Source of the DNA: Bacteroidales bacterium
GTDB lineage: Bacteria > Bacteroidota > Bacteroidia > Bacteroidales > VadinHA17
DNA length: 63,175 bases
Assembly (NCBI GenBank): GCA_029974835.1
Contig: JARKQN010000038.1
Location: 1-63,175, forward strand
Direction: 5' to 3'
Shown here: one piece after another, positions 9,400 to 32,274 of the stretch
Layout: each line of letters begins with the position of its first letter
How positions within the stretch are numbered: the first letter of the stretch is position 1
Made by a program: the position numbers and the translations under genes
The notes under the pieces: generated by a model
Seen by the model: only the letters and a program-made list of their open reading frames with translations
Told to the model about the DNA's origin: nothing
Database searches by the model: none

Positions 9400-9401
9400 C
9401 T

Positions 9402-11183: not shown

Positions 11184-11199
11184 AGTAGTTTTCTTTCTG

Positions 11200-12360: not shown

Positions 12361-12373
12361 GGTTTTAATCTGT

Positions 12374-13704: not shown

Positions 13705-13707
13705 AAT

Positions 13708-14049: not shown

Positions 14050-14059
14050 ATTCGTTTTA

Positions 14060-16151: not shown

Positions 16152-16378
16152 AATTCGCCGCTCCCCGCCTGTTGTATTTCCCCAAGCAGCCGGATGGTTT
16201 CCAGGGCCTCCTCTTCGTCAATTTTCTGAATGGCAAAGCCGGCATGGAGAAGGACATAATCGCCCGGCTTCACATCGTCAAGCATCTGCAGTCCGGCCCT
16301 GAAGATGGCGCCTCCGGCCGAAACATCGGCCATGTCGCCTTCGACTTTTATTACTTTTACAGGTATACTCAGGCACAT
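16148..16378 (-). CDS. hypC: Hydrogenase assembly chaperone HypC
   Basis: 76 aa. It begins MCLSIPVKVI with the essential Cys2. The rest is the small OB-like fold (DYVLLHAGFAIQKIDEEEA). It binds HypD during Fe(CN)2CO assembly and escorts the group to the large subunit. Only one HypC-type chaperone is present, fitting one [NiFe] enzyme in the region. Overlaps hypF by 10 bp and hypD by 4 bp. Confidence 0.96.
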   Translation of the reverse strand: MCLSIPVKVIKVEGDMADVSAGGAIFRAGLQMLDDVKPGDYVLLHAGFAIQKIDEEEALETIRLLGEIQQAGSGEL

Positions 16379-18633: not shown

Positions 18634-19292
18634 AGCTCAATGTTCTTAAGGCCTTCGTTACGTATCTGGTTATGAACGTAATAGATAACGCTCTCCAGTT
18701 CGTCGCAGAGATTTATGTTATTTATTACCACATCTTCAGGCACCTTCAGCAGTACAGGTGCAAAGTTTATTATTCCCTTAATGCCGTTACGCACCAGTTC
18801 ATCGCAGACCTGTTGTGCAGAGATCTCAGGAACAGCTATAATAGCGACTTTAACCTTAAACCTGTGTATTATTTCCTTAAGCCTGTCCATGCCATAAACC
18901 GGAATATCATATCTTGCCTTCTGTTTATACGGATCGATGTCGAACGCAGCAACAACGTTCATATTCCTCTGCACGAACCGGCTGTATTTTGAGAGGGCAA
19001 GGCCCAGGTTTCCCATGCCCATGAGAATTATGTTGTGCTCCTTGTTCCTGTAAAATAAGGCTTCCATTTTTTCGAGCAGGTCGGAAAGTACGTATCCCCC
19101 TCTCTTATTACCCCGTATGTTAAACTCCGAAAAGTCTTTCCGTACCTGGTCGGGGGTTACGCCGGCCTCCTCTGCAAGTGTATAGGAAAAGACTTTTTCC
19201 ACTCCCATCATCTTCAGCCTGTACAGACATGCGCGGTAAAGGAAGATCCTTTTCAGGCTGTTTTTTAAAACGTTTTTTGTGACTGTTTTCAC
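18612..19292 (-). CDS. rex: Redox-sensing repressor Rex
   Basis: 226 aa from the GTG at 19292. A longer TTG start at 19334 overlaps the -7 promoter element and is unlikely. N-terminal winged helix: LKRIFLYRACLYRLKMM, FSYTLAEEAGVTPDQVRKDFSEF and the wing NKRGGY. Rossmann domain: ILMGMGNLGLALSKYSRF (NAD(H) loop) and VVAAFDIDPYK. Rex leaves DNA when the NADH/NAD+ ratio is high and so derepresses redox-balancing genes. Here it leads the hyp operon and sits back-to-back with the [NiFe] operon, with likely operators around it. Its stop overlaps the hypF frame. Confidence 0.95.
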   Translation of the reverse strand: MKTVTKNVLKNSLKRIFLYRACLYRLKMMGVEKVFSYTLAEEAGVTPDQVRKDFSEFNIRGNKRGGYVLSDLLEKMEALFYRNKEHNIILMGMGNLGLALSKYSRFVQRNMNVVAAFDIDPYKQKARYDIPVYGMDRLKEIIHRFKVKVAIIAVPEISAQQVCDELVRNGIKGIINFAPVLLKVPEDVVINNINLCDELESVIYYVHNQIRNEGLKNIELLYGDMK

Positions 19293-19323
19293 TTTAAAAC
19301 AATAATAAGTTAGATTAACTCTG

Positions 19324-19353
19324 CAAATGTACAAATATTTTTGTTTTCGCCAA
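19324..19353 (-). promoter_or_regulatory. Bacteroidota-type promoter of rex-hyp
   Basis: On the minus strand, TTG (19353-19351), a 19-bp spacer, then TACATTTG (19331-19324), a full match to the -7 consensus TAnnTTTG. Transcription should begin near 19318. This places the rex start downstream, at GTG 19292. Confidence 0.75.
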
Positions 19354-19389: not shown

Positions 19390-19407
19390 TTGTGACTTTT
19401 TTCACGT
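19390..19407. promoter_or_regulatory. Putative Rex operator 1 in the rex/[NiFe] intergenic region
   Basis: TTGTGAC-TTTT-TTCACGT fits 11 of 14 positions of the Rex consensus TTGTGAA-N4-TTCACAA. It lies between the divergent promoters, about 70 bp upstream of the rex transcription start. Confidence 0.6.
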
Positions 19408-19458: not shown

Positions 19459-19476
19459 ATGTGAATATTATCACAT
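19459..19476. promoter_or_regulatory. Putative Rex operator 2, just before the [NiFe] operon
   Basis: ATGTGAA-TATT-ATCACAT has perfect 6-bp arms (ATGTGA/TCACAT) and fits 11 of 14 Rex consensus positions. It ends 2 bp before the start codon at 19479. A -7-like TATATTTT at 19448-19455 would put the transcription start on this site, a position suited to repression. No good -33 element is seen. Confidence 0.6.
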
Positions 19477-19478: not shown

Positions 19479-20471
19479 ATGGAATATTTATACACAAAAA
19501 AAACCGCCTGGGATGAATTGCTTGGGAGGCTTCTTGTCTCTCACGATATTTTCGGCCCGGTTGCCGGCGAACATTTCCAGGAATATGAACATCTTTCTTC
19601 CGCAACAGTTCCTGAGGTAATTTATAACAGGCCCAAGCCTGCCTCTCCCCTTAAGATCTTTTTCCTGCCCGTCCGGGAAAATGTCACTTCCCCCCGTAAG
19701 CAGGAAAAACAAAGGATAATAATCGGTGCTCCTGCCTGTGACACTGAGGCTCTCGGACTTCTTGATGAGATATACCTCGATTCGGATTTCGAAGATGTTT
19801 TCTACAGGAGCCGGAGGCAGAACACAATTATTATCAGCTCCGACTGCTTTGACGTGATGGAACATTGCCATTGTACATCGTATGGCATAAGACCATGGGA
19901 TGAGAAGAAAGCTGATGCGGCTGTTGCAGTAAAAGGCGATACTTTATTTATAAGAATAATCTCCGAAAAGGGCCGTAAGTTCATCAGTGATACCGGGGTT
20001 TTTACCCCTGTAACCGACAGCAGCATGGTTTCCTTTATTGATTCGCGTCACCGGGAAACCGAGAGCATGCTTGAGAGGGCAAACAGATTACTGCCGGATT
20101 ACGCCCGGACAGGCAGTCTTGTTAAGGAATCAGGACAGGCCGTATGGGTTAAGCATTCCGCCACCTGCGTTTCATGCGGAGCCTGCACGACTATTTGTCC
20201 CACCTGTACGTGCTTCCTCCTGATCGACAAGCCCGGCTTTCACAAGGTTAAGCAGATGGATGCCTGCCAGTATCCGGGTTTTGAACGCACCGCCGGCGGT
20301 GAGGACCCACTGGGGGAACTCCATGAACGCTTCAGAAACAGATATATGTGCAAGTATGTGTGGAAACCTGAAAAGTTTCATTCCACAGCCTGCACCGGAT
20401 GCGGCAGGTGCATAGAGGCCTGCATAGGCAAAATTGACAAGAACAAATTATTCATGGAACTGGCAAAATAG
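19479..20471 (+). CDS. AsrA / sulfhydrogenase beta-like iron-sulfur subunit
   Basis: 330 aa. An N-terminal AsrA/HydB-type domain is followed by a two-cluster ferredoxin domain: CVSCGACTTICPTCTCF (about residues 229-245) and CTGCGRCIEACIGKI (about 306-320). This family pairs with an FAD subunit in anaerobic sulfite reductase and in group-3b [NiFe]-hydrogenases, where it relays electrons between FAD and the catalytic part. No siroheme AsrC subunit follows, so a sulfite reductase is unlikely. First gene of the [NiFe] operon, directly after a Rex-like site and 6 bp before its FAD partner. Confidence 0.85.
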   Translation: MEYLYTKKTAWDELLGRLLVSHDIFGPVAGEHFQEYEHLSSATVPEVIYNRPKPASPLKIFFLPVRENVTSPRKQEKQRIIIGAPACDTEALGLLDEIYLDSDFEDVFYRSRRQNTIIISSDCFDVMEHCHCTSYGIRPWDEKKADAAVAVKGDTLFIRIISEKGRKFISDTGVFTPVTDSSMVSFIDSRHRETESMLERANRLLPDYARTGSLVKESGQAVWVKHSATCVSCGACTTICPTCTCFLLIDKPGFHKVKQMDACQYPGFERTAGGEDPLGELHERFRNRYMCKYVWKPEKFHSTACTGCGRCIEACIGKIDKNKLFMELAK

Positions 20472-20477
20472 AACATT

Positions 20478-21302
20478 ATGCCAACCGAAAAAAATATCTA
20501 CAGACCCATCAGGGCAAAACTCACCGATGTAATCGTTGAGTCGCCCACAATCAAGACATTCGTGCTCATACCCGAGGAGGATTTTTCTTTTAAAACAGGT
20601 CAGTTCATCGAACTTTCGGTCGACGGCATAGGAGAGGCACCCTTCACTCCCTCCTCGTCGCCCCTTGTTAAGGAAAAAATTGAAGTGACCATAATGAAAA
20701 CCGGGTATGTGACAGAATACATGCACAACATGAAGCCAGGCTCATACATGGGTATCAGGGGACCTTACGGCAGGGGCTACCCGGTTGAAAAGTTTTTCGA
20801 CAAGGAGGTTCTGATACTTGGAGGCGGCTGCGGATTCGCACCTATCCGGTCATTATTGTATAACCTTGCGGCAATTACCGACAAGCTCCGGAAAGTGACT
20901 CTGTGCTACGGGTCGAAGACTCCCGAGGATTGCATCTACAAGCCCTACATAAGCGAGCTGAGAAAGATTCCCAAATTCGAAGTGTACCGCAGCGTCGACA
21001 AAGGCGACAGCAACTGGACCGAGAGGGTGGGAGTTGTAACAGTGCTGCTCGACGACGTGAAAGTGGATATCAGTAATTCAGTTGCAGTCGTATGCGGCCC
21101 TCCGGTTATGATGAAATTCGGAACCCTGAAGCTTCTTCAGATGGGATACCCCGAACATGACATTTACCTCTCAATGGAGAAAAACATGTCGTGCGGACTC
21201 GGAAAATGCGGACACTGCATGATGGGAAAGTATTTTGTCTGCAAGGACGGACCTGTATTTACCTACGATGAAATTAAGGATCAACCCAATATCTGGAACT
21301 GA
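20478..21302 (+). CDS. AsrB / sulfhydrogenase gamma-like FAD-NAD(P)H subunit
   Basis: 274 aa, ferredoxin-NADP reductase superfamily. FAD-binding barrel with GQFIELSVDG and APFTPSSS (about 42-61), nucleotide-binding loop LGGGCGFAPIRSLLYNL (about 114-130), VVCGPPVMM (about 203-211). A C-terminal Cys-rich [2Fe-2S] site CGLGKCGHCMMG...VCKDGP follows. It would oxidise or reduce NAD(P)(H) at FAD and pass single electrons to the AsrA-like partner. Whether NADH or NADPH is used cannot be told. The stop overlaps no gene; the next ATG follows after 1 bp. Confidence 0.87.
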   Translation: MPTEKNIYRPIRAKLTDVIVESPTIKTFVLIPEEDFSFKTGQFIELSVDGIGEAPFTPSSSPLVKEKIEVTIMKTGYVTEYMHNMKPGSYMGIRGPYGRGYPVEKFFDKEVLILGGGCGFAPIRSLLYNLAAITDKLRKVTLCYGSKTPEDCIYKPYISELRKIPKFEVYRSVDKGDSNWTERVGVVTVLLDDVKVDISNSVAVVCGPPVMMKFGTLKLLQMGYPEHDIYLSMEKNMSCGLGKCGHCMMGKYFVCKDGPVFTYDEIKDQPNIWN

Positions 21303-21303
21303 T

Positions 21304-21798
21304 ATGGCTCAGAGGATACTCCTTGACATGACAAAACTAAGGGCTGCACTGGCTGAAAAGCACGACCTGCAGGTACCTGAAGCAGTCTTCTACCCGGCGC
21401 CCAACAGGGAGGGGCTGAGAACAATACGTGAACTCGCGGTATTCAGATATGCATGCCGGAGGTGCGAGGATGCCCCGTGCATCGCCTCCTGCCCCGCCGA
21501 AGCTCTCGAAAAGGACGAAGAAGGGATAATAAACAGGCATCTTAACCTTTGTGTTTCGTGTAAATCGTGCGTCACAATCTGCCCGTTCGGCACGATGATG
21601 ACAGATTTCTTCAAACATCACAGGAACAAGGACCTGTATTACGATCTTACCGACATGGAAGAGATGGCAAAGTTTGTGGCCGCATGCCCGCCCGGTACAG
21701 CCGAAATAACCGACAGGAAAGAATCTCCCGAAGAAAATATCTTCAGACTTAACGACAGGATTCTGATAAAGGACATAAAATACATAAACGAGAAATAA
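21304..21798 (+). CDS. Polyferredoxin subunit (HycB/HydN-like)
   Basis: 164 aa from the ATG at 21304, one base after the previous stop; a longer in-frame reading overlaps the FAD subunit gene and is not needed. Ferredoxin motifs CRRCEDAPCIASCP (about 59-72) and CVSCKSCVTICP (about 86-97), with a further Cys in ACPPGTAE. It is similar to the electron-transfer ferredoxin subunits of formate hydrogenlyase. It probably links the AsrAB-like module to the membrane-bound hydrogenase. Followed by the nuoH-like gene after 3 bp. Confidence 0.85.
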   Translation: MAQRILLDMTKLRAALAEKHDLQVPEAVFYPAPNREGLRTIRELAVFRYACRRCEDAPCIASCPAEALEKDEEGIINRHLNLCVSCKSCVTICPFGTMMTDFFKHHRNKDLYYDLTDMEEMAKFVAACPPGTAEITDRKESPEENIFRLNDRILIKDIKYINEK

Positions 21799-21801
21799 AC
21801 A

Positions 21802-22734
21802 ATGGCAGTTTACCTGTTCTATCTGATAGTGTTTCCCGGGCTGCTGTTTTCGGCAGTGACAGGGGCTTTTCTTTCCTGGTTCGACAGGAAAATTACAGCC
21901 AGGGTTCAGTTCCGCAAAGGTCCTCCCCTGCTTCAGCCTTTTTATGATTTTTTCAAACTTCTGCTCGTCAAGGAAACTATTCTGCCGAAGAAGGGATCGC
22001 CGATGATGTTTCTTCTCGCCCCGGTCCTTGCAGTGGCCGGAGCCGCACTGGCCTCGGTATTTATCCTTCTTCCGCTGTTTAACATATCCTCAGGCTTTAA
22101 GGGCGATCTGATTGTAATTTTCTATCTGCTCACCATACCGTCATTCTCGTATATTATAGGTTCGCTGGCTTCGGGCAATCCTCTTGCAGCGGTAGGAGGT
22201 TCGAGGGAGATGAAACTGATTATGAGTTATGAATCAACTTTCCTGCTGTTCCTTGCAGGAATTATCGTAAAAGCTTCCGGTAATTTCAATTTATATTCAG
22301 TCATTAGCATACAGCAGAACACAACCCCATTCATAGGAAGCGTTTCGGGCATACTGCTCTTTATTGTCGGAATCTTCTGCATACAGGCAAAGCTCGGACT
22401 GGTGCCTTTTGATATGGCGGAGGCCGAGACGGAAATCACCGAAGGAACATTTATCGAATATTCCGGTCCGCCCTATGCGATGATAAAGCTTGCCAAATAT
22501 ATAATGCTTTTCATACTGCCATCATTTCTTGCCGCCCTTCTCCTTAACGGGTTTACTCTGAAAGGAATAAATATTCTCTGGGCTGTGCTGAAGATTGCCG
22601 GTGTGGTTCTTTTGCTTACACTGATAAGGAACACAAACCCCCGGCTGAAAATAAAACAGGCCGTCAGCTTCTTCATGATATGGATGAACCTGCTGGCCGT
22701 AATTGCAATAGTTCTTGCTTACCTGGGATATTAA
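21802..22734 (+). CDS. Membrane subunit NuoH/MbhM-like
   Basis: 310 aa, about eight hydrophobic helices. Conserved NuoH-family segments: FDRKITARVQFRKGPPLLQPFYDFFKLL (residues about 26-53; a Q-site-like loop), SREMKLIMSYE, and the acidic loop PFDMAEAETEITEGTFIEYSGP (about 201-222). In group-4 hydrogenases this subunit anchors the peripheral arm and couples it to the ion-pumping arm. The gene order (H then B, C, D) is Ech/Mbh-like. Confidence 0.92.
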   Translation: MAVYLFYLIVFPGLLFSAVTGAFLSWFDRKITARVQFRKGPPLLQPFYDFFKLLLVKETILPKKGSPMMFLLAPVLAVAGAALASVFILLPLFNISSGFKGDLIVIFYLLTIPSFSYIIGSLASGNPLAAVGGSREMKLIMSYESTFLLFLAGIIVKASGNFNLYSVISIQQNTTPFIGSVSGILLFIVGIFCIQAKLGLVPFDMAEAETEITEGTFIEYSGPPYAMIKLAKYIMLFILPSFLAALLLNGFTLKGINILWAVLKIAGVVLLLTLIRNTNPRLKIKQAVSFFMIWMNLLAVIAIVLAYLGY

Positions 22735-22745
22735 ATTCATATAAA

Positions 22746-23159
22746 GTGAGTTTCAAAAATTTCTGCTTCAAAAAATCGCTTTGGGTGTTCCACTTCGGTG
22801 GAGCATCATGTAACAACTGCGATATAGAGATACTCGATTGCCTTACCCCACGCTATGACCTTGAGCGGTTCGGAATACTCCTCGTGGGCAGCATCAGGCA
22901 TGCCGATGTTCTGCTGGTAAACGGGTCAATAAACATGCGCGACAGGGACAGGCTTCTCGAAATTTATGAACAGGCCCCAAAACCCATACTGGTTGTCGCC
23001 ATCGGTGCCTGCGGATGCACGGGCGGAATATTCGCGGAAGGAAACACTTTTGCCGGTCCGGTCGATAAAATCATCCCGGTAAATGCATATATACCCGGCT
23101 GTCCGCCCAAGCCGGAGGCTATCATTGCGGGAATTGTGAAACTGGTGAAAAGCGTGTAG
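22746..23159 (+). CDS. [NiFe]-hydrogenase small subunit, NuoB/MbhJ-like
   Basis: 137 aa from GTG 22746, 11 bp after the nuoH-like stop. The proximal [4Fe-4S] ligands are visible: GGASCNNCDIEILD (Cys22, Cys25), GACGCTGGIF, and PGCPPKPEAI. This subunit carries the single cluster next to the NiFe site in group-4 enzymes. It is short, as in Ech/Mbh. A 161-bp purine-rich repeat region separates it from the next gene. An upstream extension would overlap the nuoH-like gene and is not supported. Confidence 0.9.
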   Translation: MSFKNFCFKKSLWVFHFGGASCNNCDIEILDCLTPRYDLERFGILLVGSIRHADVLLVNGSINMRDRDRLLEIYEQAPKPILVVAIGACGCTGGIFAEGNTFAGPVDKIIPVNAYIPGCPPKPEAIIAGIVKLVKSV

Positions 23160-23300
23160 GAACGAAGGGGCGAGGGAACGAGGGAGCGAGGGAGCGAGAG
23201 AGCGATGGGGAGATGAGGCGATGAGGCGATGAGGCGAAGAGGCGAGGGAGCGAGGGAGCGAGGGAGCGAGAGGGCGAGAGGGCGAGGGGGTGAAAGGTGG
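23160..23300 (+). repeat. Purine-rich tandem repeat with 8-bp period inside the [NiFe] operon
   Basis: The tract is almost pure G/A with C once per unit. Octamers CGAGGGAG and CGATGAGG alternate in blocks: CGAGGGAG repeats, then GATGAGGC three times, then CGAGGGAG again. It lies between the nuoB-like and nuoC-like genes; other gaps in this operon are mostly under 15 bp. No start codon with a credible product. It may form an unusual structure in mRNA or DNA and may vary in copy number. Confidence 0.9.
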
Positions 23301-23320
23301 ATTTTAAAAAATAAGGTTTA

Positions 23321-23761
23321 ATGATGAATACGGATGCAATTTTAAACGGTTTGAAAGAGAAGTTTGGTCCGCTGGTTACCGAAACGGTGAAGAGAAACGG
23401 GAAACGGTACGTGGTGACAATCAATCCTTCCGCGATCCTGAATGTCTCTGAATATCTGTACAGGGAAGCCGGATGCAGGTTTATTATAGCTTCTGCCCTC
23501 CATACAAAAAGGGGGTTCGAGATTCATTATCACTTCAGCAAAGATGACTGCGGACTGGTTCTCAACATCCATGTGATTCTTGACCATAATAAGCCGTCCA
23601 TCGAATCGCTTTCAAACATGTTCAATGCATCAAACTGGATCGAAAGGGAAATGCATGAGCTTTTCGGCATTGATTTCATTAACCACCCGAACCAGGAGAA
23701 GCTGATCTCCGAAGGCAACTGGGCCGAGGGCGTATATCCTTACAGGAAAGAGTTCAAATAA
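23321..23761 (+). CDS. NuoC/MbhK-like subunit of the [NiFe]-hydrogenase
   Basis: 146 aa, complex I 30-kDa family. It shows the family core FEIHYHFSKDDCGLVLNIHVILDH (about 67-90) and NWIEREMHELFGIDFINHPNQEKLI (about 105-129), ending EGVYPYRKEFK. It contacts the large subunit in the peripheral arm. Two ATG codons lie at the start (MMNTD); either may be used. It follows the purine repeat and precedes the large subunit gene by 7 bp. Confidence 0.92.
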   Translation: MMNTDAILNGLKEKFGPLVTETVKRNGKRYVVTINPSAILNVSEYLYREAGCRFIIASALHTKRGFEIHYHFSKDDCGLVLNIHVILDHNKPSIESLSNMFNASNWIEREMHELFGIDFINHPNQEKLISEGNWAEGVYPYRKEFK

Positions 23762-23768
23762 ATAATAT

Positions 23769-24974
23769 ATGAGTAATAAATTTCTCATACCCATAGGTCC
23801 TTACCACCCCCTGCAGGAGGAGCCGGAGCTCTTCAAACTATACTGTGAGGGCGAGATAGTTAAGGACATAAAATGGGAAACAGGGTACAACCACAGGGGT
23901 ATCGAAAAGCTCGCTGAATCGAAAACCTACGACCAGGTGTTTTTTCTGGTGGAAAGAATCTGCGGTATATGCTCAACCTCCCATCCCTTCGCTTTTGCAA
24001 ATGCCGTGGAGGAGATATGCAATATTGAAATCACCAACAGGGCCAGGTACATAAGAAGCATCATCGGGGAGCTCGAGAGAATACACAGCCACCTGCTCTG
24101 GGTAGGCCTGGCAGGCCATTTTCTCGGTTACAACACTGTCTTCATGTGGGCATGGAAATACCGCGAACCCGTGCTTGACCTATTTGAGATGATTACCGGC
24201 AACCGTAACAGCTACGCAATGTTTAAGGTGGGCGGGGTAAGGAGAGATATTGAAGGACATAAGATCAGGGAAATAAGAAAGGTTCTTGATGAAGTGAAGA
24301 AAAAGACCGATCTGCTTACCGGCGCCGTCATGGATGATCCGGTAATACATGCCAGGACAAAGGGAGTCGGAATACTTACGAAGGAGGATATTATTGACTA
24401 TGGAGCTGTTGGTCCTACAGCAAGAGCCTCAGGCGTGGCAATAGACGTAAGGAAAGATGATCCCTATGCCGCATACCCGCTGGTAAACTGGAAAGTTATA
24501 ACCGCAACGGCCGGCGACGTCTTTGCAAAAGCAGAGGTCCGCCTTCTGGAGATGTACGAATCAATCTCAATAATTGAACAGTGCCTCGACGGCCTGGAGA
24601 AGGAGAAAGAAGGAGATATAAATATAAAGGTAAAGAACATACCCGAGGGAATAGGTACCGGGAGGGCCGAAGCGCCCAGGGGTGAGGTGTTTCACTGTGT
24701 CTTCTCCGACGGGTCGAACTCTCCCGCACGCCACAAGATAAGGGCTCCGAGCTATGTTAACATAGCCACTTTTAAAAAGTCCTGCATCGGGCAGAGCATA
24801 TCCGATGCCACCATTTCCCTTGCCGCTGTCGATCCATGCTATTGCTGCACCGAAAGGCTTGCCGTGGCGTACGACATGCATACAGGCGAAAAGATTATGA
24901 ACGGGGCCGATATTATCCGTGCTTCAGCCGGACAGACCAGGCTTATTATGAAAAATCTTAAAATGAAGGTATGA
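23769..24974 (+). CDS. Group-4 [NiFe]-hydrogenase large subunit (MbhL/EchE-like)
   Basis: 401 aa. Both NiFe ligand pairs are intact: ERICGICSTSH (Cys65, Cys68) and DPCYCCTER (Cys357, Cys360). Complex I NuoD lacks these, so this is a hydrogenase and not a respiratory NADH dehydrogenase. It carries 38 residues after Arg363 of CTER, where HycI-type proteases cut; a protease gene is found at the end of the operon. The remaining body (GYNHRGIEKLAE, GELERIHSHLLWVGLAGH) is typical of the 49-kDa family. The ATGA of the next gene overlaps the stop. Confidence 0.95.
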   Translation: MSNKFLIPIGPYHPLQEEPELFKLYCEGEIVKDIKWETGYNHRGIEKLAESKTYDQVFFLVERICGICSTSHPFAFANAVEEICNIEITNRARYIRSIIGELERIHSHLLWVGLAGHFLGYNTVFMWAWKYREPVLDLFEMITGNRNSYAMFKVGGVRRDIEGHKIREIRKVLDEVKKKTDLLTGAVMDDPVIHARTKGVGILTKEDIIDYGAVGPTARASGVAIDVRKDDPYAAYPLVNWKVITATAGDVFAKAEVRLLEMYESISIIEQCLDGLEKEKEGDINIKVKNIPEGIGTGRAEAPRGEVFHCVFSDGSNSPARHKIRAPSYVNIATFKKSCIGQSISDATISLAAVDPCYCCTERLAVAYDMHTGEKIMNGADIIRASAGQTRLIMKNLKMKV

Positions 24975-26821
24975 ACGAATATTTCTTATTAATATTTCTA
25001 CCTGTCGTCGCCGGTATCCTTCTGTTTATTGTTCCCGACAGGCTGAAACCGGTAAAAGGCATCTTTACAGTGCTTGTGACTGCCGTTACCCTGATACTGG
25101 CAATAATTGTCTATTCATATAAATCGTCGAAATTCGGACCGGGCAATCTGCTCCCCGGGTTTCTGCTTCCATCAACACTTAACCCTTCAATTGAATCATT
25201 TTTCACCTTTCAGTCCGATGCCCTTGCAAGGCTGATAGTACTTTTCATAAGCCTGTTCGGATTTCTTATTGCGGTTTATTCTCTGGCTTTCAGGGGTACG
25301 GGCAGCGTAAGACATTACTTTCCGTGGTTTCTTATTACCCTGGGATGTTCCTACGGTGCCGTTCTTGCCGACAACCTGCTGGTATTCATAGCCTTCTGGG
25401 GCGCACTTGGCATTACGCTTTACAAACTTGTGCAGGGAGAGAGCGAGGCCGGTTCGGCCACTGCGAAAAAGACACTTATACTGATTGGTGCTTCCGACAG
25501 TATTATGATAGTGGGGATTGCCATTTTATGGAAGCTGACCGGGACACTTAACATGAGTGAAATACAGGTTTCGACAGGGAATGCCATTGCATGCACTGCC
25601 TTTATTGCCCTGCTCATCGGCAGTTTCACCAAGGCCGGTGCTTTTCCTTTTCACAGCTGGGTGCCCGACTATGCAAAGGATGCGCCGGCTTCGTCATCGG
25701 CATTTCTGCCCGCGTCACTCGACAAGCTGCTAGGCATTTATTTCCTGGCAAGAATCCTTACAGGACTCTTCTTCCCGGGAGAATTGATGACTCTTCTGCT
25801 CCTTGTAACCGGAACCGCAACCATAATTACAGCCGTAATGATGGCGCTTGTACAGCACAATTACAAGAGACTTCTCGGCTACCATGCAGTGTCTCAGGTA
25901 GGCTACATGATACTTGGCCTGAGTCTCGGGTCTTTCATAGGAATTGCGGCGGGTCTGTTTCATATGGTAAACCATGCCCTCTACAAGAGCGGATTGTTCC
26001 TTTCTGCAGGCGCAATTGAGCAGAACACGGGAAAAACTGAAATTGAGGATCTTGGCGGACTGTCGAAAGCGATGCCTGTCACCTTCGCTGCAGCACTGAT
26101 CTTCGCCATGTCCATCTCCGGTATTCCGCCTCTCAACGGCTTCGCCTCAAAATGGATGATTTACCAGGCAATCATCGATTTCGGCGCAGGTGCGGGGCCG
26201 GCAAACAAACTCTGGTTTATATGGCTTGCCCTGGCGGTTCTGGGTTCTGCACTTACCCTTGCAAGTTTCATAAAGTTCCTCGGAGGCATCTTCATGGGCA
26301 GAAGGAAGGATGAATTTGAGGGGATCAGGGAAGTACCGGTTCTCATGTGGCTGCCGCTGTCGGTTATAGCACTCTTCTGTGTCGGATTCGGCATCCTGGC
26401 AACGGGAGTGATAGTGCCGCGTATTTTCATGCCGGTGACGGGTACTTTTGAATTTTCGGGTTTATGGAGCGCAGGCACTGCCTCCCTGATGATACTAATC
26501 TCCATTATTGCCGGAGTTCTTGTGTATCTGGCAACCGGCATAAAGAGATTCAGAACATCCGACAGTTTTATAGGCGGGGAAAAATTCTACGACAAGGCTG
26601 CCTATCCTGCTCCGGAATTTTATAAAACCTTTTCGGAATTCCGTTTTTTCAGAGTGCTGTATAAAAAGGCCGAAGAGAAATGGTTCGATATCTACGATCT
26701 GTCAAGAAATGCAGTGCTCTGGTTCAGCCACCTCCTGAGCGACACCCATAACGGCATACTCTCCTCCTATGTTTTATGGGTTTTTGCCGGGCTAATTATC
26801 ATGCTAATTATTATGTTGTAA
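24971..26821 (+). CDS. Antiporter-like proton/sodium channel subunit (MrpA N-part / NuoL-like)
   Basis: 616 aa, about 14-16 hydrophobic helices. The proton-antiporter core is visible: SFTKAGAFPFHSWVPDYAKDAPASSSAFLPASLDKLLG (about 216-253), HNYKRLLGYHAVSQVGYMILGLSLG and FHMVNHALYKSGLFLSAGAIEQ. It is shorter than MrpA (about 800 aa); the missing C-terminal part is encoded by the next gene. Together with the MrpD-like subunit it makes a second antiporter unit in the complex. Overlaps the large subunit gene by 4 bp. Confidence 0.92.
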   Translation: MNEYFLLIFLPVVAGILLFIVPDRLKPVKGIFTVLVTAVTLILAIIVYSYKSSKFGPGNLLPGFLLPSTLNPSIESFFTFQSDALARLIVLFISLFGFLIAVYSLAFRGTGSVRHYFPWFLITLGCSYGAVLADNLLVFIAFWGALGITLYKLVQGESEAGSATAKKTLILIGASDSIMIVGIAILWKLTGTLNMSEIQVSTGNAIACTAFIALLIGSFTKAGAFPFHSWVPDYAKDAPASSSAFLPASLDKLLGIYFLARILTGLFFPGELMTLLLLVTGTATIITAVMMALVQHNYKRLLGYHAVSQVGYMILGLSLGSFIGIAAGLFHMVNHALYKSGLFLSAGAIEQNTGKTEIEDLGGLSKAMPVTFAAALIFAMSISGIPPLNGFASKWMIYQAIIDFGAGAGPANKLWFIWLALAVLGSALTLASFIKFLGGIFMGRRKDEFEGIREVPVLMWLPLSVIALFCVGFGILATGVIVPRIFMPVTGTFEFSGLWSAGTASLMILISIIAGVLVYLATGIKRFRTSDSFIGGEKFYDKAAYPAPEFYKTFSEFRFFRVLYKKAEEKWFDIYDLSRNAVLWFSHLLSDTHNGILSSYVLWVFAGLIIMLIIML

Positions 26822-26832
26822 TCTGACAAAAT

Positions 26833-27360
26833 ATGGAACTGGCTCTTTCGGTTATACTTGTTTTGATGATACTCGGGGCTCTGTTTGCCATCCATGCGAA
26901 GGACCTGCTTTCTGCTGTTATTTCATGCAGCATTGTCGGGTATGGTCTGGTAATTTGCTTTCTTCTTCTGAAAGCTCCCGACCTTGCCATTGTACAGATT
27001 GTTGTCGAAACAATCACGCTGGTAATAATGGTGGCTGTTGTTCTTGACAGCACCAGGCAGGAACCCTTCACCAGACCCGATCCTCAGGGGTGGGTGAATA
27101 TCGCTGCTGCAATTATCATTGTTGTGGTTCTGTTTTTCTTCCTGAAGGTGGCATCGGGTTCGCTCGATCATTTTGGCAGGGGAACACTGAGAATGGCTCA
27201 GCATTATATTGAAGGAGCGGCTGCAAAAACCGGCAGCGCAAATCTTGTTACGGGAGTGATCTTCGACTTCAGGGGGTATGATACCCTGGGCGAGGCAACG
27301 GTGCTGGTGACAGCGGTACTCGGTACCCTGGCCATATTGAGGATTAAAGGAAAAAAATGA
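26833..27360 (+). CDS. MbhD-MbhE-like subunit (MrpA C-terminal part, DUF4040)
   Basis: 175 aa. The first half is the DUF4040/MbhD domain with three helices and the conserved [20 protein letters not shown] segment (about residues 48-67). The second half is MbhE-like, with [20 protein letters not shown] (about 139-158). In Pyrococcus Mbh these are two proteins; in MrpA they form the C-terminal end. Here they form one separate protein. It probably links the antiporter units to the rest of the membrane arm. Confidence 0.88.
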
Positions 27361-27406
27361 AACAGAATTTGCCATTCGTTATCCGATATTCAAAATACAG
27401 CACACT

Positions 27407-27844
27407 ATGAAAGGCATGACACTTATAGTAAAGGAAACAACCCGGCTTCTGGCAGGATTGATTTTCCTTTACGGCATTTACATAATTATACACGGGCATC
27501 TCACTCCCGGCGGCGGCTTTGCAGGAGGTGTTGTTGTTGCGGGTTCCTTTATACTGCTGATCCTCGCATACGGAAGCGATTACATGCACCTGACGAGGGA
27601 GGAGACCGGCACCACCATAACTGAGAACCTTGCAATACTGATAGCACTGCTGATAGCTCTCGGCGGGATGGCGTTCGGGGTGAAGATATTCTTTTCGAAC
27701 TGGCTTCCCCGGGGTACAGTCGGCGAGCTTGTAAGCGCCGGAGTCATACCGCTGTACAACATATTTATTGGTATGGAGGTGGCTGCTTCGATACTTACCA
27801 TATTTCTTGCATTGTTAATTTTTAAAGAGGAGCTTACAAAATGA
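27407..27844 (+). CDS. MrpB/MbhF-like antiporter subunit
   Basis: 145 aa with four hydrophobic helices. The family signature HLTPGGGFAGGVVVAGSFILL (about 31-51) is clear. LPRGTVGELVSAGVIPLYNIFIGMEV lies in the second half. Small structural subunit of Mrp antiporters and Mbh-type hydrogenases. A second ATG three codons in is an alternative start. 46-bp gap before it; the stop overlaps mrpC by 4 bp. Confidence 0.9.
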   Translation: MKGMTLIVKETTRLLAGLIFLYGIYIIIHGHLTPGGGFAGGVVVAGSFILLILAYGSDYMHLTREETGTTITENLAILIALLIALGGMAFGVKIFFSNWLPRGTVGELVSAGVIPLYNIFIGMEVAASILTIFLALLIFKEELTK

Positions 27845-28179
27845 TTGTCTACCTGCTTTGCTTCGTTTTGTTCCTGACAGGTCTTTATGGCGTTATTACC
27901 AGGAGAAACCTGGTGAAGATAGTCATTTCACTTTCCATCATGGAATTCAGCCTTTTTCTTTTTCTTGCCCTTATCGGGTATGTTGAAGGAGGCACTGTGC
28001 CCATTGTTGACCCGGCTGATACCGGGGCGGTTTACGTGGATCCGCTTCCCCAGGCAATGGTACTTACCGCCATCGTTATCGGACTTGCCACCACCGCAAT
28101 GCTGATGGCGGTGATAATCCGTGTTTACAGGAAGTACAAGACGATGGATATACGAGAGATTAAAAACCTAAGAGGATAA
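27841..28179 (+). CDS. MrpC/MbhG-like (NuoK-like) subunit
   Basis: 112 aa, three hydrophobic helices. NuoK/MrpC features: GLYGVITRRNLVKIVISLSIMEFSLFLFLAL (about 14-44, with the membrane Glu in MEFS) and DPLPQAMVLTAIVIGLATTAMLMAVIIRVY (about 67-96). It takes part in ion translocation in the membrane arm. Confidence 0.92.
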   Translation: MIVYLLCFVLFLTGLYGVITRRNLVKIVISLSIMEFSLFLFLALIGYVEGGTVPIVDPADTGAVYVDPLPQAMVLTAIVIGLATTAMLMAVIIRVYRKYKTMDIREIKNLRG

Positions 28180-28185
28180 AATAAA

Positions 28186-29724
28186 ATGAATCCGTTAATA
28201 CCGCTGTTCATAGCCATTCCGCTTGCAGGAGCATTCCTGACAATGATACTGGGAAAGTTTCTCCCCCGGTTAAATAAGTACCTTGGCATAACTGTGCTGC
28301 TCCTTCTGGCCATGATGAGCCTGATATCGGTTGCAACAATTTCGGGCGGAACCGATATATATAAGGTAGGAGGATGGGAACCTGTCGGCGGCATCCCGAT
28401 CGGCATCTACATGGTACTCGACAACCTGTCGGCTCTCCTTCTATGTGTCATTAATATCGTCGGATTGCTGGCAGTAATTTATTCTTTCACATATATCAGT
28501 CAGTACACTTCCGAAAATTACTTCTATTCACTTTTCTGTCTCATGATTGCCGGAATGAACGGCGTGGTGCTGAGCGGCGATCTGTTCAATATTTTCGTGT
28601 TTCTTGAGATTTCAGCTATTTCATCCTACGCGCTCGTCGCCTTCGGCGTCGAAAGGGAACAGCTTGAGGCAACTTTTAAGTACCAGGTGCTGGGCGGACT
28701 GGCATCGCTGGTTATTCTGCTGGGAACGGGTTTCATTTACTGGAAAGCAAAGACACTTAATATAGCGGATGCAAGGGAAGTATTGTGGGCAGGTTCGGAG
28801 AAGCCTTTTTATCTTCTTGCCCAGCTTCTCCTTCTGAGCGGGTTTGGTCTTAAGGCAGCCATCATACCCTTCCACGCCTGGCTTCCCGATGCACACTCCT
28901 CAGCCCCCTCGCCCATCTCTGCAATGCTTTCGGGAGTGCTGATAAAGGCCGTAGGTATTTATGTGATATTCAGGCTGTTCTTTAACATGTTCGTACTCAG
29001 TGAAGAGATTGCGGTGCTGATTACCGTGCTGGGAACCCTCTCGATGGCAGTTGGCGTATTTCTTGCCATAGGGCAGTGGGACATAAAAAGGCTCCTGGCA
29101 TATCACAGCATCAGCCAGATGGGTTATGTTGTGATGTCGGCCGGGATAGGTATGATACTTGTTTCAAGGGGCACAAAGCCTGAAGTTGCAGCACTGGCAC
29201 TTGCGGGAGCGCTTTTCCACCTGATAAACCATGCCGCATTCAAAAGCCTTCTCTTTCTGAATGCCGGGGCCATAGAATACCGTACAGGCACCAGGAATCT
29301 CAGGGAGATGGGAGGACTTGCCGCCTGTATGCCGGCAACCTCTTCGACCTCTTTTGCAGCTTCAATGGCCATATCAGGGCTTCCTCCTTTCAACGGTTTC
29401 TTCAGCAAGCTGATTATAATCATAGCCGCCGTTATGGCAAGATTCTATCTGCTTGCCGCCATCGCCGTGATTGTGAGCATTGTCACACTTGCGTCTTTCC
29501 TGAAATTCCAGCGTTATGCCTTTTACAACGGCAAAAGGGAAGCAGGCAAAGAGAATCTGAGGGAAGTTCCTTTTCCCATGGTGCTCAGCATGGTCACACT
29601 GGCTCTCTTCTGCCTCCTGCTGAGCCTGGCTGCACTGCCGCACTTCAGGGATATTATTTTCACGCCGGCAATAAGAATTTTGACCGACGCACAACAATAC
29701 ACCGCACCAATACTAGGATTTTGA
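28186..29724 (+). CDS. MrpD/MbhH-like antiporter subunit
   Basis: 512 aa, about 14 helices. Core motifs: FVFLEISAISSYALVAFG (with the key Glu), GFGLKAAIIPFHAWLPDAHSSAPSPISAMLSGVLIKAVGIY (Lys in GLKAA and PISAMLSG), KRLLAYHSISQMGYV, and FHLINHAAFKSLLFLNAGAIEY. It is a second antiporter-like channel next to the NuoL-like subunit at 24971. Pyrococcus Mbh has one such subunit; Mrp, Mbx and Mbs have two. Confidence 0.93.
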   Translation: MNPLIPLFIAIPLAGAFLTMILGKFLPRLNKYLGITVLLLLAMMSLISVATISGGTDIYKVGGWEPVGGIPIGIYMVLDNLSALLLCVINIVGLLAVIYSFTYISQYTSENYFYSLFCLMIAGMNGVVLSGDLFNIFVFLEISAISSYALVAFGVEREQLEATFKYQVLGGLASLVILLGTGFIYWKAKTLNIADAREVLWAGSEKPFYLLAQLLLLSGFGLKAAIIPFHAWLPDAHSSAPSPISAMLSGVLIKAVGIYVIFRLFFNMFVLSEEIAVLITVLGTLSMAVGVFLAIGQWDIKRLLAYHSISQMGYVVMSAGIGMILVSRGTKPEVAALALAGALFHLINHAAFKSLLFLNAGAIEYRTGTRNLREMGGLAACMPATSSTSFAASMAISGLPPFNGFFSKLIIIIAAVMARFYLLAAIAVIVSIVTLASFLKFQRYAFYNGKREAGKENLREVPFPMVLSMVTLALFCLLLSLAALPHFRDIIFTPAIRILTDAQQYTAPILGF

Positions 29725-29725
29725 T

Positions 29726-30211
29726 ATGAGATACGTTTCAGTTTTTATCCTCGGACTTGTGTTCTGGCTGCTGATAACCTTCAGGTTTACAGTACCCAAT
29801 ATTATAGTTGGGGCTGCAGCATCGCTGCTGTGTGCAGCCATCTTTGCCGGATATTCGATGACCGGCACACTTCAGATGCTGAACCCGGTAAGATGGTTCT
29901 GGTTTCTGGTTTACCTGGTCACCTTCATATTCTCATGCATAAAGGCCAACCTCGACGTGGCTTACAGGGTTCTTCATCCGCGCATGCCGATTAAACCCGG
30001 CATTGTAAAAATTAAGACCAGTCTGAAGAGCGACTTTGCCAAAACTCTTCTCGCCAACTCGATCACCATGACTCCCGGCACACTTACCGTGGATGTAAAA
30101 AATGAATACCTGTATATCCACTGGATATACATCAGATCTGAAGATCCGGAGGAAACTGCAAGGATAATAATCGGTCCTTTTGAAAAGTACATTAAAAAAT
30201 TTGCGGAATGA
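29726..30211 (+). CDS. MrpE/MbhA-like subunit
   Basis: 161 aa. Two N-terminal hydrophobic segments, then the MrpE family block ANLDVAYRVLHPRMPIKPGIVKIKT (about 73-97) and LLANSITMTPGTLTVDVKNEYLYIHWI (about 109-135). Structural subunit of the sodium-translocating part. The start follows the mrpD-like stop by one base and the end overlaps mrpF by 4 bp. Confidence 0.92.
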   Translation: MRYVSVFILGLVFWLLITFRFTVPNIIVGAAASLLCAAIFAGYSMTGTLQMLNPVRWFWFLVYLVTFIFSCIKANLDVAYRVLHPRMPIKPGIVKIKTSLKSDFAKTLLANSITMTPGTLTVDVKNEYLYIHWIYIRSEDPEETARIIIGPFEKYIKKFAE

Positions 30212-30474
30212 ACATGTGGCTTGAAATACTGCTTTATACACAGATCGCGCTGAGCGGTGTGTGTCTTTACAGGATTATCCGGGGGCCAACCATTCCGGAC
30301 AGGATGGTTGCCATCGATATTTTCGGCATCCTTGTGGTGGGTGTCTGTGCTATCATTGCCATCCAGACAGGCAAAAAGTTTATTATCGACATAGGAATAG
30401 CATGGGTAATACTAAGCTTTATCGGCACACTGACCCTTGCCAAATACCTGAGTGGTAAAAAATTAAACGAGTAA
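30208..30474 (+). CDS. MrpF/MbhB-like subunit
   Basis: 88 aa, three helices. IIRGPTIPDRMVAIDIFGILVVGV (about 23-46) is the MrpF signature with conserved Pro-Asp-Arg. It forms part of the proposed sodium path of Mrp-type complexes. Overlaps mrpE by 4 bp. Confidence 0.92.
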   Translation: MNMWLEILLYTQIALSGVCLYRIIRGPTIPDRMVAIDIFGILVVGVCAIIAIQTGKKFIIDIGIAWVILSFIGTLTLAKYLSGKKLNE

Positions 30475-30475
30475 T

Positions 30476-30793
30476 ATGGCTGCAATCGTATTAATAAGCG
30501 TGGGAGTCCTTTTCAATATCTTCGGCTGTATCGGCCTTCTGAGGCTTCCTGATGTTTACAACAGGCTTCAGGCCGCAACAAAATGTGTCACCCTGGGTTG
30601 CTGCAGCATTCTGCTGGGAGTCTTTATTCACTTCGGCTTAACCGATGCAGGAATAAAGGGACTTATCGCCATTCCGCTCCTGTTCTTCAGCGCTACGGTG
30701 GCTGCTCATGCTCTTGTCAGGGGTACATATCATTTCGGGGTGAAAATGACCGAAAAAAGTGTAAAAGACGAATATAAAAGTGATGTAATATGA
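30476..30793 (+). CDS. MrpG/MbhC-like subunit
   Basis: 105 aa, three helices. IGLLRLPDVYNRLQAATKCVTLGCCSILLGVFIHFG (about 19-54) is the MrpG signature (RLPDxYxRxxAATK). Small subunit of the sodium-translocation module with MrpE and MrpF. Overlaps the NuoI-like gene by 4 bp. Confidence 0.92.
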   Translation: MAAIVLISVGVLFNIFGCIGLLRLPDVYNRLQAATKCVTLGCCSILLGVFIHFGLTDAGIKGLIAIPLLFFSATVAAHALVRGTYHFGVKMTEKSVKDEYKSDVI

Positions 30794-31398
30794 AATATCC
30801 AAAGTTAAGGGAACTCAGGGAGGCGGTAATATCACTTTTTACACCGGCATACACGACAAAATTTCCGTACGCCGGGCACACCCCGTTTGAAGGATTCAGG
30901 GGACGGCCGGTGGTGGATGATCTGAACTGCGTGGGATGCGAAACCTGTGCAAATGTATGCCCGCCTCACGCAATAACATTTTCTGACGATCCTGAGAAAA
31001 AGGTCAGGACCATCAGGAGAGATTACGGAAAATGTATCTTCTGCGGTCAGTGTGAGGAACACTGCATTACCCGGAAGGGAGTGAAACTTTCGGATAAAAT
31101 CTTTGATATAGCCGACACAGACCGTTCCCGGAATGTCGACATCCAGCAGAAAGAACTGCTTGTATGCAATAACTGCGGTGCAGTAATAACCACAAAGGAA
31201 CATCTTAAGTTCATCCACAGGAAACTCGGGCCAAAAGCCTATTCATCAGTCCTGAACCTTAATGTGCTGAACGAAAAGCTTCGCCTTGCCGAAGGCCAGG
31301 ATATTCAAGTGGAAGTGGTTGATCATCTCAAAAGAAAAGATATGTTCAACATACTTTGCCCCAACTGCCTGAGGCTGGTCCTTATAAAATATCTCTGA
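30790..31398 (+). CDS. NuoI/MbhN-like ferredoxin subunit with C-terminal zinc ribbon
   Basis: 202 aa. Two [4Fe-4S] motifs: CVGCETCANVCPP (about 47-59) and CIFCGQCEEHC (about 81-91), as in NuoI and MbhN. It adds a C-terminal part with CNNC (about 125-128) and CPNC (about 192-195), which looks like a split zinc ribbon, as in some formate-hydrogenlyase homologues. It should carry electrons from the polyferredoxin/AsrAB side to the small subunit. Confidence 0.88.
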   Translation: MKYPKLRELREAVISLFTPAYTTKFPYAGHTPFEGFRGRPVVDDLNCVGCETCANVCPPHAITFSDDPEKKVRTIRRDYGKCIFCGQCEEHCITRKGVKLSDKIFDIADTDRSRNVDIQQKELLVCNNCGAVITTKEHLKFIHRKLGPKAYSSVLNLNVLNEKLRLAEGQDIQVEVVDHLKRKDMFNILCPNCLRLVLIKYL

Positions 31399-31400
31399 AC

Positions 31401-31868
31401 GTGCTCCCTCAACTCGGTGAAATATTATCCGGAAAGGACAGGAAAATTGTTTTTGCCGGAATCGGGAATGTATTGAAAAAGGACGACGGGGTCGGTGTTT
31501 ACATAAGCAGCCGTATCAGGGAGAGAGAAAACCTTAAAGCCCTTACGGTAGAGGTGAGCATTGAAAACTATATCGGAAAAATTAACTCGCTTAATCCTGA
31601 TATTCTTATACTTATCGACTGTGTTGACATGAACTGCCCGCCCGGAACCAGCAGGCTCATGAGGATAGACGAGATACGGGATTTTACCTTTAACACTCAT
31701 AATATTTCCCTCAAAAGAATCACCGAGTTTTTCACCGCCGAAGTTTTTATCCTGGGAATTCAGCCCCTGAATGTTGATTTTGGAGAAAAAATTTCGTACC
31801 TTGTTGCGACAGAAGCAAACAAAATTATTGAACAAATTAATAAAGAGGAGGTAAGCCATGGCAGTTGA
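31401..31868 (+). CDS. Hydrogenase maturation protease (HycI-like)
   Basis: 155 aa from GTG 31401, 2 bp after the NuoI-like stop. A longer reading would overlap that gene. FAGIGNVLKKDDGVGVYI (about 18-35) is the nickel-recognition motif of HycI/HoxM proteases; the Asp in DDGVG and the Asp in ILIDCVDM (about 75-81) are the expected metal ligands, with a His in FNTHNISL. It should remove the 38-residue tail of the large subunit after nickel insertion. It overlaps the next gene by 11 bp. Confidence 0.9.
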   Translation: MLPQLGEILSGKDRKIVFAGIGNVLKKDDGVGVYISSRIRERENLKALTVEVSIENYIGKINSLNPDILILIDCVDMNCPPGTSRLMRIDEIRDFTFNTHNISLKRITEFFTAEVFILGIQPLNVDFGEKISYLVATEANKIIEQINKEEVSHGS

Positions 31869-32274
31869 ATATTTATGCAAAGCCTGCAGGGGACATCTGA
31901 ACGTAAAAACTTCGATTATCCTTGCAGCACAGAAAATGAACAGCTCACAGAGAGGCCTTGTCTATCTTAATCCCGAGCTGGGCAACTATACGGTTACCAC
32001 GCACCCGTCTTTCCAGATCAGGGAAGGAGAAGAGTACCTTTACACCTGTCCTATCTGTCACTCCCTGCTGAACAGCGCCAAGTATGATCACCTTGTAAGA
32101 ATCATAATGGTTGACGAGGACAAGAAGGAATATGACATTTACTTTTCCGATATTGCCGGAGAAAAATGTACCTATAAGATCAGGGGATCTGAACTCGAAG
32201 GTAAAGTTGGTCCTGACGCAGACAGGTATTCAAAATATTTCGATATGCCCGAAGAGGATAGAAAATACCTCTGA
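31858..32274 (+). CDS. Unknown zinc-ribbon-like protein, last gene of the [NiFe] operon
   Basis: 138 aa; family not recognised. CKAC (residues 7-10) and CPIC (about 64-67) could bind one zinc in a split ribbon. The rest looks soluble and mixed alpha/beta, with a charged C-terminal end (PDADRYSKYFDMPEEDRKYL). No signal peptide or membrane segment. It overlaps the protease gene by 11 bp and is followed by a strong terminator, so it belongs to the operon. It may be an accessory or assembly protein. No function is assigned. Confidence 0.8.
   Translation: MAVEYLCKACRGHLNVKTSIILAAQKMNSSQRGLVYLNPELGNYTVTTHPSFQIREGEEYLYTCPICHSLLNSAKYDHLVRIIMVDEDKKEYDIYFSDIAGEKCTYKIRGSELEGKVGPDADRYSKYFDMPEEDRKYL

Follow-up and report, generated by a model that had tools for sequence, protein, structure and literature searches.

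Conserved linkage of an AsrAB-like NAD(P)H module to a Mrp-linked group 4 [NiFe] hydrogenase with predicted Rex control in Bacteroidales

Introduction

How is a membrane-bound [NiFe] hydrogenase with a Mrp-type membrane arm supplied with electrons, if its operon starts with the genes of a pyridine nucleotide module? The question is raised by an operon at positions 19479-32274 of contig JARKQN010000038.1 (assembly GCA_029974835.1) from a Bacteroidales bacterium; the 63,175 nucleotides of this contig are referred to as the window. We favour, with confidence slightly above even, the reading that the operon specifies a Rex-controlled, ion-coupled NAD(P)H:H+ oxidoreductase complex which mainly evolves H2. 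This reading is based on the encoded parts, their intact sites, the conserved linkage, a docking tail and Rex sites, all predicted from the sequence; the assembly into one complex, the donor (NADH or NADPH), the direction and the ion are what we infer from them.

Composition of the operon

A previous reading of the DNA from its letters (the sequence-only reading) had described one operon of 18 genes with all Mrp-type subunits. Both statements hold: all 18 frames are intact and run in one direction, and Pfam matches were obtained for MbhD+E and for the MrpB-G-like genes. The widest intergenic gap, between mbhJ and mbhK, comprises 161 bp. Seventeen of the 18 genes were assigned by Pfam and/or NCBIfam, many scores being under the NCBIfam equivalog cut-offs:

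19479..20471, + strand: AsrA / sulfhydrogenase-beta-like Fe-S subunit, 330 amino acids (aa); NCBIfam ShyB (3e-38), HydB and AsrA, all below cut-off; PDB 9nez_B (9e-33)
20478..21302, + strand: AsrB / sulfhydrogenase-gamma-like FAD, NAD(P)H and [2Fe-2S] subunit, 274 aa; Pfam FAD_binding_6, NAD_binding_1 and DHODB_Fe-S_bind; PDB 9nez_C (5e-48)
21304..21798, + strand: HycB-like two-cluster ferredoxin linker, 8 invariant Cys; NCBIfam DmsB/HydN/NrfC-like, below cut-off; PDB matches include HycB of formate hydrogenlyase (FHL), 7z0s_B (1e-8)
21802..22734, + strand: MbhM / HycD / NuoH-like membrane anchor; PF00146 (4e-62)
22746..23159, + strand: MbhJ / HycG / NuoB-like small subunit; PF01058 (2e-31); GTG start picked by eye
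23321..23761, + strand: MbhK / NuoC-like subunit; PF00329 (7e-22)
23769..24974, + strand: MbhL, [NiFe] catalytic large subunit, 401 aa; PF00346 and PF00374; PDB 6cfw_L (1e-83) and 7z0s_E (4e-76)
24971..26821, + strand: NuoL/MbxH'-like antiporter subunit, 616 aa; PF00361; matches 6u8y_X over residues 1-613
26833..27360, + strand: MbhD+MbhE fusion (MrpA C-terminal part); PF13244 and PF20501
27407..27844, + strand: MrpB-like; PF04039 (2e-25)
27841..28179, + strand: MrpC / NuoK-like; PF00420 (2e-28)
28186..29724, + strand: MrpD-like antiporter subunit; PF00361 (7e-62); Glu of transmembrane helix 5 (TM5) and aligned Lys residues present in the residue alignment
29726..30211, + strand: MrpE-like; PF01899
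30208..30474, + strand: MrpF-like; PF04066
30476..30793, + strand: MrpG-like; PF03334
30790..31398, + strand: HycF-like Fe-S subunit with the C-terminal quartet C126/C129/C190/C193; NCBIfam HycF-type (3e-24), below cut-off
31401..31868, + strand: HycI-type hydrogenase maturation protease; PF01750 (5e-10), TIGR00142 (2e-25, below cut-off) and TIGR00072 (above cut-off); GTG start picked by eye
31858..32274, + strand: Orf18, 138 aa, with two CxxC pairs, the last gene of the operon; conserved gene without family match

Catalytic core and classification

MbhL contains both [NiFe] ligand pairs, C65-GI-C68 and DP-C357-YC-C360. The intact CGIC and DPCxxC ligands, on which the description of the catalytic core had been founded, were thus seen again, and all 89 distinct relatives longer than 380 aa have both cysteine pairs. 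These relatives originate from 93 loci with MbhL, in which some genomes are represented twice; identical proteins were counted once, and a paralogue without AsrAB (L144) was excluded. Past DPCYCC, MbhL carries a C-terminal extension. This tail, the protease gene and a set of hyp genes upstream of the operon fit an enzyme that is truly matured with Ni and Fe.

The NuoD-like large subunit has two CxxC ligand pairs and comes with NuoB/C/H/I-like partners, which places the enzyme in group 4. By contrast, MbhL gave a weak partial match only to the sulfhydrogenase alpha families, and neither a group 3 large subunit nor an AsrC-type gene was found by Pfam and NCBIfam among the 18 genes, although subunits of the AsrA and AsrB type known from group 3b and AsrABC are present (all equivalog scores below cut-off). 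In a tree of 31 large subunits, the hydrogenases were separated from Nuo and Mbx (support 100/98), and the AsrAB-linked MbhL proteins formed a single clade of 18 rows (100/99), with L144 outside. The tree comprises few references and several long branches, and does not settle the placement relative to Pyrococcus furiosus Mbh and HycE. The tree places MbhL on the hydrogenase side, without assignment to a HydDB subgroup. According to the class descriptions of HydDB, group 4d is ferredoxin-coupled and Mrp-linked, and group 4b is formate- or CO-respiring and Mrp-linked (PMC5037454). The Mrp-type membrane subunits agree with 4d; a dedicated and conserved module of AsrAB and linker is present in addition.

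Conservation of the AsrAB-linker module

Relatives were collected by a MbhL scan with one genome per species, from which the best 80 of 250 loci were taken; all 80 are titled Bacteroidota or below. Of the 65 loci offering at least 4.4 kb ahead of MbhL, 64 have AsrA, AsrB and the linker there. The exception (L081) is a scaffold piece flanked by N gaps on both sides and was rejected as a counter-example since it is bounded by unknown bases. Among the 15 loci with less than 4.4 kb, four possess all three genes, two the linker and the cut end of AsrB, two a cut linker only, and seven none of them. In 71 loci the contig extends to the place of AsrB, and 70 of them show AsrB or its cut end. Hence, apart from the scaffold artefact, AsrAB is not separated from the operon in these relatives, and the gene order suggested as a search target recurs in other genomes. 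The proteins themselves are well conserved, AsrA with 16 Cys across 76 rows of its alignment and AsrB with GGGCG and CxxxxCxxC in every one of its 76 distinct rows.

MbhL (E 1e-100) was detected in 21 of 393 genomes from the order and a matching AsrB (68-100% identity) in 20, all of them belonging to those 21. The 21st genome (G408) revealed hit coordinates, 2965-4155, identical to those of L071 and is taken for the same contig. The first 146 bases of L071 constitute the end of asrB (last 47 codons), and because this contig starts inside asrB, L071/G408 was likewise rejected as a counter-example. What had been proposed as a union of membrane hydrogenase, NAD(P)H module and Mrp arm is borne out as genomic linkage, both by the 70 of 71 loci and by the restriction of this AsrB to genomes with MbhL.

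AsrB relatives of 38-42% identity occur in 29 further genomes of the 393. Four were inspected: three (L186, L188 and L189, AsrB approximately 40% identical) contain an AsrA/AsrB-like pair adjoining HdrA- or MvhD-like genes and the fourth lacks such neighbours, the labels having been given by eye. In the genome of the window, no second AsrB of this type was found, the next matches being at most 33% identical. The AsrA/AsrB pair gives the impression of a portable NAD(P)H module. It could be argued that AsrAB is a separate soluble enzyme for the reduction of sulphur, sulfite or polysulfide that is only co-transcribed with the hydrogenase genes, as the family names tell of such pairs serving sulfite reductase and sulfhydrogenases, and as AsrA/AsrB-like pairs adjoin HdrA/MvhD-like genes in three genomes. 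However, the strict co-occurrence with MbhL, the lack of an AsrC-type partner among the 18 genes and a contact explained by the linker and the HycF-like tail make this very improbable.

The arrangement extends beyond the closest relatives. In G267, a member of the Bacteroidota from another class, the order from AsrA to the protease is retained at a MbhL identity of 59%; no molybdopterin gene was seen by eye beside this operon. The operon also occurs in records named as strains instead of metagenome bins (Labilibacter sediminis CG51 and Marinilabiliaceae bacterium JC017), and should thus be testable. In another locus (L155, G642:C87, approximately 6360-11500), several kb with a 1197-codon open frame and a small mbhJ-like piece lie between mbhM and mbhJ, which is an insertion or an assembly artefact.

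Linker and HycF-like subunit

The gene behind asrAB had been read as a polyferredoxin. While the AsrA/AsrB-like pair at the operon head stood up to the analysis, this label did not: the protein has eight conserved Cys, corresponding to two [4Fe-4S] sites, and its relatives are linkers of the HycB/DmsB type. A second element of this kind is the C-terminal quartet of the HycF-like subunit, which is present in 66 of 68 relatives longer than 150 aa (69 rows in total); of the two rows without it, one ends early and one was read out of frame. In FHL of Escherichia coli, the tail of HycF contacts HycB (PMC9474812). Linker and tail were found together in four of six other group 4 operons, those of HycF, HyfH, Azospirillum argentinense HycF and an Azospirillum thermophilum enzyme, and are both absent from the remaining two, a Butyrivibrio plasmid enzyme and L144. 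Although six operons are few, the pattern is as expected if linker and tail formed a socket for a dedicated oxidoreductase. By analogy, the best reading is that AsrAB would occupy the place of FdhF in FHL.

Two of these operons are worth describing. L144 (G504:C10) is a second group 4 enzyme in the genus of the window, with a large subunit 46% identical to MbhL. Its NuoI-like subunit has no tail, and its listed open reading frames include neither AsrAB nor a HycB-like gene. The operon on the A. thermophilum plasmid (L158, 5706-15074) combines a HycB-like linker with what looks like an input module, an aldehyde ferredoxin oxidoreductase.

The entry side also bears on another interpretation, namely that electrons come mainly from ferredoxin, as they do in Mbh, and AsrAB is a side arm to NAD(P)+, so that the enzyme would be a hub between ferredoxin, NAD(P)H and H2. 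The genome possesses Rnf and HydABC, systems that work with ferredoxin, and with ferredoxin at -480 mV H2 formation is exergonic at every H2 level computed. Moreover, Mbh takes its electrons via ferredoxin (PMC9474812). On the other hand, linker and HycF-like tail would, by analogy to FHL, already cover the entry side, and the paralogue L144, which lacks a dedicated input module, has neither AsrAB, linker nor tail. We regard the hub as unlikely, albeit worth keeping in mind.

Membrane arm

The membrane arm comprises two antiporter-like subunits, the NuoL/MbxH'-like protein of 616 aa and MrpD, presumably one more than in P. furiosus Mbh. Residues 1-613 of the former align with the 618-aa chain X of 6u8y (Mbx), which we take to be MbxH', while the top PDB score was obtained with chain H of Mbh. 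At the position of the TM5 Glu, this subunit has a glycine (Gly144), which is found in 83 of 84 distinct rows, the remaining one having Ser. The TM5 Glu is kept in all 12 antiporter-like subunits compared (HycC, HyfB, HyfD, HyfF, NuoL, NuoM, NuoN, three of L144 and two MrpD).

Regulation by Rex

A rex gene is located divergently to the operon, and Rex-type operators were identified in the intergenic region and around the start of rex:

18612..19334, - strand: Rex redox repressor, divergent; NF003996, 219.6 bits (cut-off 138)
19460..19475, no strand: exact Rex-type operator TGTGA-N6-TCACA, three bases ahead of the asrA ATG
19391-19406 and 19278-19293: one-mismatch copies of the Rex operator upstream of asrA

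In 73 upstream regions, 84 exact sites were detected, compared to a mean of 0.02 and at most one per shuffle set. As the regions are related by descent, the shuffle figure overstates their independence; 80 exact sites in 70 regions were left after identical regions had been collapsed. An adjacent rex gene exists in 58 of these, and 42 of them contain an exact site and eight a site with one mismatch. Without adjacent rex (12 regions), ten have no site, one has a site with one mismatch and one an exact site. Most sites cluster at two places, near the rex start (approximately -200) and just ahead of asrA (approximately -20). They conform to the reported consensus TTGTGAAN4TTCACAA (PMC5317091, PMC13077300), so that both a Rex protein and predicted operators of consensus type are at hand. 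The clostridial-type site TTGTTAAN6TTAACAA was rejected, as it gave one weak match compared to 4.5 expected. Since Rex is released at high NADH/NAD+, the operon should be switched on when electrons want a sink.

The sequence-only reading had left a choice between H2 production at the cost of the gradient and H2 consumption to make NAD(P)H. The Rex operators and an adjoining NADH-type [FeFe] hydrogenase tilt this choice to an electron sink. For the opposite direction, with H2 as reductant for NAD(P)+ and export of ions, it can be said that uptake at 0.1-1 bar H2 would yield 3-9 kJ with NADP+ (-370 mV) and 20-26 kJ with NAD+ (-280 mV), and that HydDB describes the NADP-coupled group 3b as physiologically reversible (PMC5037454). 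However, Rex control predicts expression at NADH excess, the adjoining HydABC is an NADH-dependent [FeFe] enzyme of the A6 type with a Rex-like site, and the record titles of relatives (fen, SlDig, Sed) suggest habitats low in H2. We consider uptake as the main function improbable.

Proposed mechanism and energetics

For the favoured H2-evolving complex, the following path is proposed. NAD(P)H would be oxidized at the FAD of AsrB, and single electrons would pass from the [2Fe-2S] cluster of AsrB through the AsrA clusters and the two linker clusters to the two clusters of the HycF-like subunit. From there they would reach the proximal cluster of MbhJ and the [NiFe] site of MbhL, where protons are reduced to H2. 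MbhM would couple the electron flow to the Mrp-type arm, which moves Na+ or H+. The complex would be made at high NADH/NAD+, when Rex is released, and its electrons would mainly be discarded as H2; ions might be gained when donor potential and low H2 permit, and otherwise the gradient would be spent.

The energies were computed from textbook donor potentials of -370 mV for NADPH, -280 mV for NADH and -480 mV for ferredoxin. At pH 7, H2 formation from NADPH amounts to +2.8 kJ at 10 kPa, -2.9 kJ at 1 kPa, -14.3 kJ at 10 Pa and -20.0 kJ at 1 Pa, and from NADH to +3.0 kJ at 10 Pa and -2.7 kJ at 1 Pa. Moving one ion across 150-180 mV costs 14.5-17.4 kJ. Thus, NADPH could fund one ion if H2 is scavenged, whereas ion inflow would be required with NADH at usual H2; a reversible, gradient-coupled enzyme agrees with both cases. 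A comparison of AsrB with 9nez_C and L143 by eye was not decisive for the preference for NADH or NADPH.

Several observations weigh against this interpretation. The linker has two clusters compared to four in HycB, and its structure model is poor, with a predicted local distance difference test score (pLDDT) of 73 and a best match of E 0.002 at a template modelling score (TM) of 0.27, for which reason an identification of the linker by structure was rejected. Docking therefore rests on analogy and the label HycB-like on sequence. asrB and the linker gene are not always adjacent either, since 23 of the 70 loci with both genes have an extra gene of approximately 160 codons between them, which the window lacks; in one example (L071, 174-662) it encodes a cyclic-nucleotide-binding domain (PF00027, 2e-11), and it may have a regulatory role where AsrAB meets the linker. 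The distance correlation of MbhL with AsrB (0.82) is not above that with Rex (0.81) or HypD (0.84); as these score alike, it was rejected as proof of a complex and shows shared inheritance only. The value for MbhL and MrpD (0.24) was probably spoiled by a wrong antiporter paralogue in some loci. Without the TM5 Glu, one pump module may not be working in the usual way. H2 formation from NADH at -280 mV is uphill down to approximately 10 Pa. Eight of the 58 regions with adjacent rex lack a Rex site even at one mismatch. Finally, Rex control has also been predicted for CO-dehydrogenase-linked hydrogenases (PMC13077300), so that Rex points to the direction and not to the donor.

Comparison with known systems

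The joining of AsrAB to a Mrp-linked group 4 hydrogenase is already in print. The nearest precedent comes from Saganbacteria RX5A, for which Matheus Carnevali et al. (2019, PMC6349859) described a group 4 enzyme together with Mrp subunits, cooF, asrA, asrB and an unclassified molybdopterin oxidoreductase, which they called enigmatic and for which they suggested an oxidoreductase module. RX5A differs by the molybdopterin oxidoreductase, there being none among the 18 genes here. No report on this Bacteroidales operon was found among the open-licence papers listed; added here are the form without molybdopterin enzyme, its conserved occurrence in Bacteroidales, the argument from the docking tail, the footprint of Rex and, in the NuoL-like subunit, the glycine.

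The sequence-only reading had drawn a parallel to Mbx-type complexes. With its HycB-like and HycF-like parts, FHL of E. coli (Hyc, group 4a; 7z0s/7z0t) is closer. The two systems share the HycB-like linker, the HycF-like tail, counterparts of HycE, HycG, HycD and HycC and a protease of the HycI type. They differ in that AsrAB replaces FdhF and that the operon has a Mrp arm with MrpB-G and a two-cluster linker. No HycH-like gene was recognised by Pfam among the 18 genes, and no FdhF-type formate dehydrogenase either, the latter being of low weight because fdhF lies outside the hyc operon of E. coli too. P. furiosus Mbh (group 4d; 6cfw) provides the best PDB match for MbhL and has a Mrp-type arm, but is fed by ferredoxin, whereas the operon here has an extra antiporter-like subunit and the HycF tail; Mbh presumably lacks a NAD(P)H module. 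Mbx (MBS; 6u8y) resembles the operon in the aligned NuoL-like subunit, but in the alignment MbxL lacks the CxxC pair of the first ligand site, while MbhL has both pairs. AsrA and AsrB match the beta and gamma subunits of P. furiosus sulfhydrogenase I (group 3b; 9nez), which we take to be a soluble enzyme; unlike there, the large subunit here is NuoD/HycE-like.

We give about an even chance to the view that the complex is a Bacteroidales H2-evolving counterpart of complex I, with NAD(P)H input via AsrAB, which is unrelated to NuoEFG and placed on a joint of the HycB/HycF type, and that it is switched by Rex and trades H2 yield against the ion gradient. If true, it would represent an independent way to attach a pyridine nucleotide module to the complex I superfamily, which is relevant to the debate on modular evolution, and a fermenter could drive H2 formation uphill at the expense of its gradient or gain ions once H2 is scavenged. 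The way in which uncultured anaerobic Bacteroidales get rid of electrons from NAD(P)H matters for H2 transfer in digesters and sediments. According to a reactor study of 2024, strictly anaerobic fermentative genomes, many from Bacteroidota, commonly encode group 4 [NiFe] hydrogenases (PMC10867827).

Neighbouring genes and other features

Beyond rex, maturation genes and a second hydrogenase precede the operon on the opposite strand:

13054..18531, - strand: hypF, hypC, hypD, hypE, hypA and hypB maturation genes; HypC by Pfam, HypA, B, D, E and F by eye
9402-12838, - strand: HydCBA, after hyp on the same strand; HydA 891.9 (cut-off 765), 'NADH-dependent [FeFe] hydrogenase, group A6'

With 386 aa, HydB of this HydABC is short. 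Approximately 110 bp upstream of hydC, positions 12950-12967 hold a Rex-like site that deviates from the consensus by one mismatch. The window contains ten Rex-like sites with up to three mismatches compared to 4.4 expected; as three of 100 shuffles reach ten, this is modestly above chance. In nine stretches read, close HydABC (83-88%) beside hyp were also found in G504 and G684 of the same genus, and more distant [FeFe] genes beside hyp in G589 and G550.

Elsewhere in the genome, Rnf and a second HydABC were recognised by eye. The loci L166 (G000:C42), L163 (G000:C83) and L165 (G000:C12) comprise, again by eye, a group 3c-like Mvh accompanied by HdrA, a Hyf-like complex and a cluster of HydABC and single [FeFe] proteins with another Rex-like gene; the part of the Hyf-like large subunit that was read contains no CGIC.

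Orf18 gave no Pfam or NCBIfam match. Its model is mostly beta (pLDDT 74) with no fold match (best E 0.73). The gene is present at many relative loci; in several more distant ones, e.g. L061, L070 and L073, no tblastn match was obtained. Between mbhJ and mbhK, a minisatellite of approximately 16 copies of GGAGCGAG occupies positions 23159-23290. It is absent from the closest relative (L004), and five near-matches of the unit were counted in the genome, four at mbhJ-mbhK and one (two mismatches) on contig C17. The window starts with two copies of a clustered regularly interspaced short palindromic repeat, 68 bp apart; within positions 1-8335, they are accompanied by apparent type I-C cas genes, which were named by eye as cas1, cas4, cas7, cas8c, cas5 and cas3.

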